A DNA stretch of 64,000 nt from Conexivisphaerales archaeon. GTDB lineage: Archaea; Thermoproteota; Nitrososphaeria; Conexivisphaerales; DTJL01. Within the stretch, counting starts at the first letter, position 1, and the number at the start of each line of letters is the position of its first letter. The notes under the pieces were generated by a model, which saw only the letters and a list, made by a program, of their open reading frames with translations, had not been told where the DNA came from and made no database searches. The position numbers were made by a program, and so were the translations under genes. The stretch spans positions 1-64,000 of the forward strand of contig JAVYTR010000002.1 in NCBI GenBank assembly GCA_038728585.1. Reading direction: 5' to 3'. Positions 53,026 to 56,662 of this stretch are shown here, one piece after another.

Positions 53026-53259
53026 TTGTCAGAAGAACAGGCTGTAGAGGAGGCACCGAAGCCAAGAGCTGCGAGAAAACCCAAGAAACCAAAGGTCAGC
53101 CCAAAGGTGTACAAGTTCTATTCTATCAATCAATCGGGCAAGCTGGAGAAGCTGAGGAGGGAATGCCCGAGATGCGGAAGGGGTGTCTTTATGGCTCAGC
53201 ATAAGGATAGATACCACTGCGGCAGATGCGGCTATACTGAATGGATCAAGAAGAGCTGA
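53026..53259 (+). CDS. rps27ae: ribosomal protein S27ae
   Basis: The protein is 77 aa. An acidic/Lys-Pro-rich N terminus is followed by [18 protein letters not shown] and [11 protein letters not shown], the four-Cys zinc ribbon. The TTG start has GAGGTGAT seven bases upstream. It is the last gene of the cluster. Confidence 0.93.
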
Positions 53260-53274
53260 CCTTATTCTTCAGGT

Positions 53275-54906
53275 TTATTTGAGCTCGAGTAGCCTGTTTC
53301 TTGCAGCCATAAGAGAGTTGGGCTGCACAAGAGCCTGGAAAGGCAGCAGATATTTCTGACTGCTCGCTCCAACGAGAACTCTTGGGTCTCCCTGTTCTAG
53401 GTATCCCTTAACAAAGCTGTCTGCAAGCTTCCAGACATCCTCCTCCCTTACAAGAGTAGAGGTATAATACATGAATTCCGCAACATCCCAGCTGGGGTCT
53501 CCGTTCTCCTCTGCCTGCTCCAGGTCGATTATTGCTATTTCGTTTCCTAGGCAGAGGACGTTCGTAGGCTTTGTATCTCCCATGCTCCCCCCTGTCTGGT
53601 GAAGCTTCCCCAGAGCAGAAGCGAACTTCGAGACGTAGCCAAGTATATCTGCATCAACGCTTCTTGACGTTATCAGGTCTTCGAGCGAATCTCCTTCAAG
53701 ATGCTCCCTTGCCATTATCTTCTCTTCAGGAGCCAGAACGTAGACCCTAGGTGTCTTGATGCCCAGCATTCTGAGGTGAATGAACCCCTTGTATTCGTTT
53801 GCAAGTCTCTGCATCGGTCTTGTCTCGAACGTCCTTGCTGTCAGAGCCACTATGCTAGCAACCATCCACTTCAGAGACCATACATCCTGATAGCGCTTTG
53901 AAACGAATTTGACCACCTTTCCATCGCTGGTAAGTGTGTGAATGTTTGTAGTTGCGAAGAATTCGCCAATAGACTTCGCTTCATGAGTGTAATGCTTATC
54001 GATGCCCAGCTCTTCTGCGCATGCCTCAACCCAGTCGGAGCCGAAGACAAGCCTTCCTTCTGGCAGCGCCAGCTCCCTTCTAGGGTCGACAAGCTCTGCA
54101 GGAGGTTCTGGCCTCTCCTTCACTCTTCCTATCTTTGAGAAGAGCTCCTTGAATGCTGTATCAACTCCTACTCTTCCTGCCAGACCGTGTGTGACATACT
54201 GCTTGACCCCTAACTTTGCCAGCCTGAGAGAAGAGGCTAGGGGGTATGATTTCAGCAGGTTCTCAGCCCTGTTTGATAGCATGTATCCCTTTGAAACCCT
54301 CATCAGCAAGCCTTCATCACAGAGAAGCTCCATCTGCCTTTCAATCTGTCTTGTAGCAAAATCAGTATTCTCGCTGCCAATCTTGCCTGAGTAAGTCTTG
54401 ATGTAGCTGTAGGCTACTGGAGGATAAAGAAAGGCCCTCTTTTTCAGCTTGTTAAAGAGAACGTACTTGGCATTGAAGACTATCTGATCTGCTAGGGGTC
54501 CATACTTTTCTATCAGCTCCTGAACAGTCTCTATAACCACCCTTCTCTTGTACTTGGCCTCGTTTTCGCTTACATACTCCTCCCCAAGAAGTACTTCGAA
54601 CCTGTTCAGAAGTCTGCCGCTGACAAATTCACCCAGGTATCCCTGTTCACAATCTTTCCTGAAAGATTTATCTTCAACCAGAAGAGCAGAGTAGTAGAGA
54701 CCTTCTTCCATACCATAGGAGTACTTTGCCTTTGGCCTGAGCTTTTCGATGACAACTATGAGGTCATAATCGCTATCCTGCCTGGCATAGCCTGACACCC
54801 TAGAGCCATATGCTATCACTGAAACTACGCTTACGCCCTTGGAAATTCTTTCGGCTATTCTGAGAAGTTTGCTTCTCGTTTCTTCATCAAGAACCAAACA
54901 TATCAC
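53275..54906 (-). CDS. nucleotidyltransferase-kinase fusion protein
   Basis: The protein is 543 aa. Residues 25-60 form an NTase core: AYGSRVSGYARQDSDYDLIV has Gly34-Ser35 and Asp46/Asp48. Residues about 130-240 are helical with a winged-helix look. Residues about 310-500 are an atypical protein kinase of the Bud32/RIO/aminoglycoside-kinase type: Lys333 in KVVKF, Glu371, then MGDTKPTNVL (Asp444, Lys446, Asn449) and AIIDLEQAEE (Asp461, with DLE for DFG), and WDVAEFMY. It is convergent with S27ae, 15 bp apart, where Kae1/Bud32 often lie in other archaea. It is translationally coupled to a zincin. I know no described function. Confidence 0.78.
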   Translation of the reverse strand: MICLVLDEETRSKLLRIAERISKGVSVVSVIAYGSRVSGYARQDSDYDLIVVIEKLRPKAKYSYGMEEGLYYSALLVEDKSFRKDCEQGYLGEFVSGRLLNRFEVLLGEEYVSENEAKYKRRVVIETVQELIEKYGPLADQIVFNAKYVLFNKLKKRAFLYPPVAYSYIKTYSGKIGSENTDFATRQIERQMELLCDEGLLMRVSKGYMLSNRAENLLKSYPLASSLRLAKLGVKQYVTHGLAGRVGVDTAFKELFSKIGRVKERPEPPAELVDPRRELALPEGRLVFGSDWVEACAEELGIDKHYTHEAKSIGEFFATTNIHTLTSDGKVVKFVSKRYQDVWSLKWMVASIVALTARTFETRPMQRLANEYKGFIHLRMLGIKTPRVYVLAPEEKIMAREHLEGDSLEDLITSRSVDADILGYVSKFASALGKLHQTGGSMGDTKPTNVLCLGNEIAIIDLEQAEENGDPSWDVAEFMYYTSTLVREEDVWKLADSFVKGYLEQGDPRVLVGASSQKYLLPFQALVQPNSLMAARNRLLELK

Positions 54907-55595
54907 CTCGACGAAGCCAAATGCGCCTTTTCGACAGCCTTCGAATCAAAGTTCGGGTTTGTTATAGATGAAACTGGTATCCTCACAGCATTATCGTCAG
55001 GTCTCACAACAACATAGGGAAGCTTTGACTCCAGCCAGTGCTTTATGACCCTTTTGTTAAGTGGCTCATCAGTGAAACCGTCTGAAAACTTCTTCTTTAT
55101 CGCAGTTACAAGCCTGCTTCTTCTGCCGAATATGTATTCAGGGTCCATAGCCTCCTGCATATCCTTGTATGTTGCTTCAAACATCGTTGAAGGTGATGGC
55201 GAGGAGAAAGGCGATTCTGTAAACCTCCTTATCAGCTCCAAGTAATGAGTGAACTCATGCGCGACAACAGAAAGAAGAGTGTCCTTCGAAGCATAGATCA
55301 GCAAAGGAGCCGTGAATTCGACGAGCAGATTCAGCCTCTGGTCTATCACAGCTGGGACGTTCCTTGCGTAGTATACCCCGTAGACTCCTGTTTCGACTTC
55401 GCTCTTCACGAGTATCAGAAGAGGCATGATATAGTAGGGAGGGTAGCTGACTCCAGAAGTTTCCTCAACCTCCCTGACCATCTCCTGCAGCAAAGGAAGC
55501 CTCTCCGAAACCTTGTTTCCTATCTCTTGGCTTATTTTACCTGCCTTGACAGCCTCCTTTACCTTGCCCAGGGGGTCCAGGTTAAGCCTTTCCAT
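54903..55595 (-). CDS. zincin metallopeptidase-like protein
   Basis: The protein is 230 aa and mainly helical. The zinc motif is VVAHEFTHYLELIRR (His113, Glu114, His117). A third ligand may be Glu140 in STMFEATYKDM, which fits gluzincin spacing. There is no signal peptide or TM helix, so it is cytoplasmic. It precedes the NTase-kinase gene with a 4-bp ATGA overlap. A cytoplasmic protease linked to a kinase/NTase fusion suggests regulated proteolysis; I do not assign a known family. Confidence 0.75.
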   Translation of the reverse strand: MERLNLDPLGKVKEAVKAGKISQEIGNKVSERLPLLQEMVREVEETSGVSYPPYYIMPLLILVKSEVETGVYGVYYARNVPAVIDQRLNLLVEFTAPLLIYASKDTLLSVVAHEFTHYLELIRRFTESPFSSPSPSTMFEATYKDMQEAMDPEYIFGRRSRLVTAIKKKFSDGFTDEPLNKRVIKHWLESKLPYVVVRPDDNAVRIPVSSITNPNFDSKAVEKAHLASSR

Positions 55596-55696: not shown

Positions 55697-56662
55697 TTGA
55701 GGAAAAGACTTCTCGTCATAGCTCTGGGTGGAAACGCACTCCTTCAGAGAGGTGAAAAGGGTACCTTTGAGGAGCAGTACTCAAACGTCAGGAGGACTGC
55801 TGAGAAGATAGCAGGAATACTTGACGATGGGTACATGCTTGCAGTAACCCATGGAAACGGACCGCAGGTAGGTGCCACTCTTCTGAGGCATGATGCAGGG
55901 AGCAGGCTGTATTCACTTCCAGCATTTCCGATGGATGTCTGCGGAGCGGAAACTCAGGGATTCATAGGATACATGATTCAGCAGGCGCTTGACAGGGAAT
56001 TCATAAGGAAGGGGATTAACAGAAAGGCGGTCACTGTAATAACCAGGGTTCTTGTTGACGAAAACGACCCTGCATTTGCAAACCCGACGAAGCCTGTTGG
56101 ACCTTTTTACACAAAGGAACAGGCTGACGAATTGTCCAGGAAGAATCCCCAGCTGATCTTCAAGGAGGATTCAGGCAGGGGTTACAGAAGGTTTGTACCT
56201 TCTCCAGACCCTAGAGAGATACTCGAAAAGGACCAGATAGAGCAGCTGGTCAAGATGGGTTATGTAGTTATCTCAACAGGAGGAGGAGGCATCCCAGTCG
56301 TTGCCAGAAGAAGTGAAGGGTCTGTCGAATACCATGGTGTTGAAGCTGTCATAGACAAGGACCTTGCAGCCGAAAGGCTGGCGACTCTGCTAGCTGCTGA
56401 GAAGCTTGTGATACTTACTGATGTTGATGCTGTATACCTGAACTATGGCAGACAGGATGCCAAGGCCTTGGATAGAGTCAGGGTTTCTGAAATGAAAGAC
56501 TATATCGGTAGGGGATACTTTGCAACTGGAAGCATGGAGCCGAAGGTGAGGGCAGCCATCAGGTTCGTATCGAACGGAGGAAGAGAAGCGATTATAGCTA
56601 ACCTTAACAGACTTGAGCAGGCACTGGCAGGCAGCTCCGGTACCAGGGTGCTGCCAGACTGA
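55697..56662 (+). CDS. arcC: carbamate kinase
   Basis: The protein is 321 aa. It has LVIALGGNALLQRGEKG, AVTHGNGPQVGATLLRHDAG, ISTGGGGIPVVARR and TGSMEPKVRAAIRFV, the full amino-acid-kinase pattern. It interconverts carbamoyl phosphate and ATP. The start is a TTG with GGTGAC about eight bases upstream. No arginine-deiminase genes are nearby. It is convergent with the Lrp gene, with no gap. Confidence 0.93.
   Translation: MRKRLLVIALGGNALLQRGEKGTFEEQYSNVRRTAEKIAGILDDGYMLAVTHGNGPQVGATLLRHDAGSRLYSLPAFPMDVCGAETQGFIGYMIQQALDREFIRKGINRKAVTVITRVLVDENDPAFANPTKPVGPFYTKEQADELSRKNPQLIFKEDSGRGYRRFVPSPDPREILEKDQIEQLVKMGYVVISTGGGGIPVVARRSEGSVEYHGVEAVIDKDLAAERLATLLAAEKLVILTDVDAVYLNYGRQDAKALDRVRVSEMKDYIGRGYFATGSMEPKVRAAIRFVSNGGREAIIANLNRLEQALAGSSGTRVLPD

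Follow-up and report, generated by a model that had tools for sequence, protein, structure and literature searches.

Bud32 and the RIO proteins act as ATPases or kinases on RNA machines. Nucleotidyltransferases, for their part, can be controlled by phosphorylation, as exemplified by the toxin TglT, which the kinase TakA phosphorylates (PMC7205606), and they can adenylylate proteins, as MntA does with HepT in HEPN/MNT systems (PMC7641770). We describe here a locus in which a nucleotidyltransferase core and a Bud32/RIO-like kinase core, which usually occur as separate enzymes, are joined in one protein whose gene is coupled to that of a predicted zinc peptidase. TglT-TakA and HEPN/MNT are analogies to this protein, not relatives by any test that we ran. 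The fusion is made of known domain types but constitutes a new, unnamed family with lineage-specific partners. We call the two proteins NTK (nucleotidyltransferase-kinase) and PEP (peptidase); these labels are our own. The window is the whole stretch of 64,000 nucleotides of a Conexivisphaerales archaeon contig that was analysed.

Gene layout and domain content

Both open reading frames of the first-pass annotation lie where it had placed them, on the minus strand (Table 1), and the motifs it had pointed out are all present: the nucleotidyltransferase has YGSRVSGYARQDSDYD, the kinase has DLEQ and the loop HQTGGSMGDTKPTN, and the peptidase has HEFTHY. It had also described an ATGA overlap; the overlap stands, but its sequence is GTGA. 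The TGA stop of PEP sits within the GTG-A start of NTK and within GAGGTGAT, and NTK and PEP therefore look translationally coupled. Overlaps or near-zero gaps between the two genes are found in most relatives. With the PEP stop and the GTG both embedded in GAGGTGAT, the TTG at 54897, three codons on, is an equally good start, giving a protein of 540 residues. The pair is convergent with S27ae, as previously noticed, which closes a facing cluster comprising a PIN-domain gene, Rpb7/RpoE1, Spt4/RpoE2, DPCK (dephospho-CoA kinase) and S24e, all names being assigned by eye. On the other side, a carbamate-kinase-like gene (55697-56662, plus strand) is divergent from the pair, and the same neighbour occurs in only a few related loci. 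An Rfam search of the window gave no match, and neither its NTK nor its PEP has a strongly hydrophobic segment.

Table 1. Positions of the genes and motifs of the locus in the window
Feature	Position	Strand	Description and basis
NTK gene	53275..54906	-	GTG start, 543 aa; nucleotidyltransferase, middle region, Bud32-like kinase
PEP gene	54903..55595	-	Predicted zinc peptidase of 230 aa; directly precedes NTK
GAGGTGAT	54902..54909	-	Shine-Dalgarno-like; contains PEP stop and NTK GTG; from sequence
S27ae	53026..53259	+	Closes the facing translation/transcription cluster; named by eye
Nucleotidyltransferase active-site motif, Y33-GSRVSGYARQDSDY-D48 (G34, S35, D46, D48)	54763..54810	-	PF01909; each residue conserved in 67/67 homologues
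NTK middle region, residues 95-300	54007..54624	-	Family-specific invariants R98, R157, Y161, Y166, S167, Y168, N180
NTK K337	53896..53898	-	Putative beta3 ATP-binding lysine of the kinase; 67/67
Kinase catalytic loop HQTGGSMGDTKPTN (H436...D444.K446..N449)	53560..53601	-	Aligned to the genome's Bud32 HSAGIIHGDPTTSN
DLEQ (D461-Q464)	53515..53526	-	DFG-equivalent metal-binding motif; conservation and alignment to Bud32
PEP HEFTH motif (H113, E114, H117)	55245..55259	-	Zinc-binding/catalytic motif; 59/59 and 34/34 conserved
PEP D145	55161..55163	-	Always acidic: D 57, E 2 of 59; D 30, E 4 of 34

The nucleotidyltransferase core proposed for NTK at first pass is borne out by NTP_transf_2 (PF01909), which matches residues 14-66 with 25.7 bits for a cut-off of 21; with its invariant G-S...D-x-D motif, the domain belongs to the Pol-beta-type nucleotidyltransferases. 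It is nearest to small nucleotidyltransferase, AadA, ANT(9) and MNT/MntA proteins, over about 45 residues only. Given that AadA and ANT(9) are among these and that APH is found among the weak Pfam matches, one could imagine that an AadA-like transferase and an APH-like kinase together modify a small molecule, e.g. in resistance or metabolite activation. We consider this highly improbable, as the scores are far under the cut-offs of resistance families (15.8 of 340 bits for ANT_9), the kinase is nearest to Bud32 and not to APH, and NTK is conserved in translation neighbourhoods and vertically inherited. As for the middle region, searches of Pfam and the PDB returned no convincing homologue. The winged helix that had been read into it is a weak possibility: in one member of the family, the middle matches the winged-helix model HTH_45 at 1e-4.

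The C-terminal part of NTK had been seen as a Bud32/RIO-like kinase core, and the NCBIfam model arch_bud32 indeed matches it in all 67 homologues, with 50.7 bits for the window NTK against a cut-off of 125. The Pfam Pkinase match of the window protein is also below its cut-off, and weak matches to Pfam RIO1 occur in 36 of the 67. Bud32 is the nearest family by NCBIfam, by hhalign and by sequence search of the PDB, in which the nearest structures include Bud32/TP53RK proteins. The ATP lysine, helix C glutamate, catalytic aspartate, asparagine and metal-binding aspartate of the Bud32-like kinase fold are present in the window NTK and in most homologues (E371, N449 and D461 in 66 of 67 each, D444 in 58). 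In a kinase-domain tree of 144 sequences, NTK stands apart from Bud32 (0.95) and from the RIO clade (0.999), and the support for its own grouping is only 0.30.

PEP is a predicted HExxH zincin, in agreement with the HEFTH-type peptidase first noticed upstream of NTK. H113, E114, H117, Y118 and W187 are invariant in the 59 PEPs aligned, and the acidic position D145 is a candidate third zinc ligand, with E140 (55176-55178) as a less conserved alternative. There was no family match above cut-off, the Pfam SprT-like model giving 14.5 bits for a cut-off of 25.6, so that PEP is placed in neither the SprT-like nor the M48 peptidases by these thresholds, and a PDB search found no relative. The first reading of this locus depended on conservation of the nucleotidyltransferase and kinase residues; the former are present throughout the homologues and the latter nearly so. 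The motifs of NTK and PEP are not chance occurrences, since their residues are conserved across 67 homologues and 59 PEPs, respectively.

Pfam and NCBIfam have a name for neither whole protein, and our literature search for the fusion or for the S27ae neighbourhood found no published role or relevant report, in line with the first-pass annotation, which could not name the system.

Distribution of the pair and of its members

PEP lies directly upstream of NTK in all 33 assessable genomes, i.e. those with NTK and enough contig to judge, among 61 genomes around the window's own (hand count). A scan of contigs of all species gave no match with a single-protein query and 80 loci with an alignment query. 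In these best 80 named loci PEP is found upstream of NTK in 74, most overlapping it or a few bases apart; of the remaining six, one is cut by the end of the contig and five belong to Terraquivivens or Bathyarchaeota. The records are titled as archaea of Thermoproteota or simply as 'archaeon', the one exception being a record titled 'bacterium', which has the same ribosomal neighbourhood. The gene coupling noted in the window is thus a feature of its relatives as well. Nitrososphaeria nearly always preserve the pair, although its neighbours rearrange, with at least four kinds of gene upstream: an Lrp-type regulator or carbamate kinase, SUI1, Pus10, and DPCK. S27ae is convergent with the pair in most cases, one family has SUI1 before and S24e after it, and another harbours the pair inside a DPCK operon. 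In Nitrososphaera, Pus10 precedes the pair, which SRP54-Pus10 adjoin; these two genes are also near NTK in Terraquivivens.

Each member also occurs without the other. All 24 sampled Nitrosopumilaceae-like genomes have kept PEP, beside S27ae/S24e where we looked, and contain no NTK match that exceeds the level of Bud32 (lineage names in '-like', i.e. Nitrosopumilaceae, Bathyarchaeia and Sulfolobaceae, were inferred from synteny and named loci, among others). Conversely, NTK without PEP is found across other Thermoproteota, including Bathyarchaeia-like lineages. Among 299 Thermoproteota genomes, 75 have PEP. By hand count, about 103 have an NTK-type match (E value of 1e-44 or better) and a further 42 or so have a kinase-centred one (1e-38 to 1e-24), which makes about 145 in total. 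PEP is best read as a Nitrososphaeria-specific zincin partner of NTK. A gene for an RNase J-family-like beta-CASP metallo-beta-lactamase directly follows NTK on the same strand in 14 of the 21 Bathyarchaeia-like loci. Two further neighbours were observed: a divergent PmbA/TldD metallopeptidase gene in 11 Caldarchaeales- or Thermofilum-like loci, and a paralogous nucleotidyltransferase family (weak PF01909), mostly as convergent pairs, near NTK in Caldarchaeales-/Thermofilum-like genomes.

The two catalytic centres of NTK have different fates. The catalytic aspartate of the kinase (D444) is replaced with Asn in 9 of 9 NTKs titled Nitrososphaera or Nitrososphaeraceae, in a loop of the LGNIKPKN type (LGN-KPKN), and their nucleotidyltransferase motif is intact. 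The latter is mostly degenerate in Bathyarchaeia-like NTKs, with intact kinase residues, it is lost in Thermofilum-like NTKs, and Sulfolobaceae-like genomes encode a kinase-only protein of about 224 residues devoid of the nucleotidyltransferase domain. Such kinase-only proteins (about 224-244 residues), found in Sulfolobaceae-like and other Thermoprotei-like genomes, score far above Bud32 against the NTK profile. As each centre is lost in some lineage that has kept the other, evolution can separate the two activities, and these losses in opposite directions, which include ammonia-oxidising archaea, represent natural experiments. The proposal at first pass that protease, nucleotidyltransferase and kinase form one regulatory or protein-modification system is not supported as stated: with PEP lacking NTK, NTK lacking PEP and separate losses of activity, one indivisible machine is not supported.

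The same data raise the question of whether the kinase is the essential part. According to this explanation, NTK would in essence be a Bud32-like kinase/ATPase, forming a family of its own in Thermoproteota. Its nucleotidyltransferase domain would mainly be a binding module, active in some lineages only, and PEP would be an independent peptidase that just shares the transcript. The retention of the kinase residues where the other domain is degenerate or absent, down to the kinase-only proteins, fits this idea, as does the spread of PEP, narrower than and partly independent of that of NTK. However, within Nitrososphaeria it is the nucleotidyltransferase motif that is better conserved (67 of 67, against 58 for D444), Nitrososphaeraceae keep it and lose the kinase aspartate, and the monophyly of NTK in the tree is poorly supported. 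We regard this explanation as unlikely.

Whether NTK or PEP might stand in for a known protein was considered as well. The genome has a Kae1-Bud32 pair elsewhere (G000:C2, at about 364 kb; Bud32 with 213 bits for arch_bud32), which answers a check suggested at first pass, as well as RIO1- and RIO2-type kinase genes and a CCA-adding enzyme (G000:C5:108672-108992); therefore, NTK replaces none of them. The pair is thus not a Bud32/Kae1 stand-in. Taken singly, NTK is not the Bud32 of KEOPS, given the scores above, nor a RIO kinase, in view of the separate RIO clade, nor a replacement for the archaeal CCA-adding enzyme, as it does not have PF09249, and PEP is not a divergent Kae1 (hhalign probability 0.1). 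NTK is not a type VII antitoxin MntA either, with 23.8 bits for a cut-off of 60 and PEP and S27ae as neighbours instead of HepT.

Searches of plasmids, phages and viral contigs found no relative. Together with the synteny, this indicates that NTK is chromosomal and vertically inherited. A toxin-antitoxin or defence module of the HEPN/MNT, MenAT/TglT-TakA or PADLOC type, suggested by the resemblance of both cores to those of toxin-antitoxin systems and by weak PADLOC matches that reflect shared folds, is largely refuted by this result, by the near-universal presence of the locus around the window's lineage in a syntenic housekeeping context, and by scores that reach no family cut-off. We see hardly any chance for it, and a mobile, defence or toxin-antitoxin module was rejected.

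Possible functions of NTK and PEP

We tentatively favour a housekeeping role for NTK in Thermoproteota, most likely in RNA metabolism or translation, as an enzyme encoded on the chromosome and inherited vertically, with PEP as a co-made peptidase. In the window's lineage, the Pol-beta-type domain at the N-terminus would add a nucleotide to a translation protein or to RNA, possibly at the end of a tRNA or rRNA. The middle region would bind the target of this reaction, and the reaction itself would be gated by the Bud32/RIO-like domain, through ATP binding and hydrolysis or through phosphorylation. PEP, a predicted soluble HExxH zinc peptidase translationally coupled in Nitrososphaeria, may act on the same target, or on an assembly factor, by trimming or removing it. 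The neighbourhoods point to RNA or translation rather than signalling, with S24e/S27ae, PIN-Rpb7-Spt4-DPCK and SRP54-Pus10 on the one hand and, independently, the RNase J-like gene in Bathyarchaeia-like loci on the other. Conserved active sites and two different RNA-related neighbourhoods in different lineages argue for this role, and so do the conservation of the pair while its upstream neighbours change, a kinase part closest to Bud32/TP53RK, and the absence of the family from the plasmids, phages and viral contigs searched. Against it, neighbourhoods are indirect evidence and ribosomal gene clusters also hold unrelated genes, and the contexts with RNase J and with S27ae come from separate lineages and do not make up one conserved module. 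The degeneration or absence of the nucleotidyltransferase in many Bathyarchaeia-like and in Sulfolobaceae-like genomes, the Asp-to-Asn change in all nine Nitrososphaeraceae sequences and the occurrence of each protein without the other also weigh against it.

Alternatively, the locus might encode a self-regulating protein-modification switch, in which the nucleotidyltransferase would AMPylate or nucleotidylate a protein, the kinase would phosphorylate the nucleotidyltransferase or that same protein, and PEP would cleave the product. By analogy, the likeness of the core to MNT/MntA and AadA-type transferases, the existence of nucleotidyltransferase-kinase control pairs (TglT-TakA, PMC7205606; HEPN/MNT, PMC7641770) and the coupling of NTK to a peptidase would all suit such a switch. 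Nevertheless, no toxin-like partner adjoins NTK, the locus is vertical and syntenic rather than mobile, separate losses of the activities are unexpected for a tightly coupled switch, and PEP persists where NTK is gone. We deem such a switch conceivable but rather doubtful.

Returning to the role in RNA metabolism or translation, it is tempting to go one step further. NTK might be the first member of a new enzyme type that modifies RNA or ribosomes and combines nucleotidyl transfer with a Bud32/RIO-type ATPase, served by a dedicated zinc peptidase in Nitrososphaeria and by a dedicated RNase J-like nuclease in Bathyarchaeia, in an unrecognised quality-control or maturation step common to Thermoproteota. 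This extended proposal is speculative, and we would not expect it to hold in full. NTK is conserved across a class, can be traced through the phylum and lies beside a translation cluster, yet is unnamed in Pfam and NCBIfam. It represents a further archaeal Bud32/RIO-like kinase family beside Bud32, RIO1 and RIO2, and bears on the question of how ATPases of this sort were recruited to RNA machines.

Comparison with known systems

PEP shares with SprT-like, M48 and DA1-like zinc peptidases an HExxH motif in a short single-domain protein, and differs from them in its scores, which are under cut-off, and in having no relative in the PDB. TglT-TakA (MenAT1) of Mycobacterium tuberculosis resembles NTK in that a nucleotidyltransferase is functionally coupled to a kinase; there (PMC7205606), these are two genes of a toxin-antitoxin locus, whereas NTK is a single fusion protein, encoded on the chromosome and present across a phylum, and no sequence-family match was recorded. 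MntA, the minimal nucleotidyltransferases and AadA have the GS...DxD Pol-beta core in common with NTK, with no detectable homology beyond it, and NTK differs in architecture, location and vertical inheritance. Like NTK, RIO kinases are atypical archaeal kinases/ATPases, and they are linked to RNA machines; they form a clade of their own, and the genome has RIO1- and RIO2-type genes besides NTK. The closest likeness of the kinase part is to Bud32/PRPK (TP53RK) of KEOPS, with which NTK shares the kinase core, the GDxxxxN loop and a compact C-lobe. Unlike Bud32, NTK has DLEQ in place of DFG, the extra K446 and a hydrophobic stretch containing KW before helix C, and is fused to a nucleotidyltransferase.
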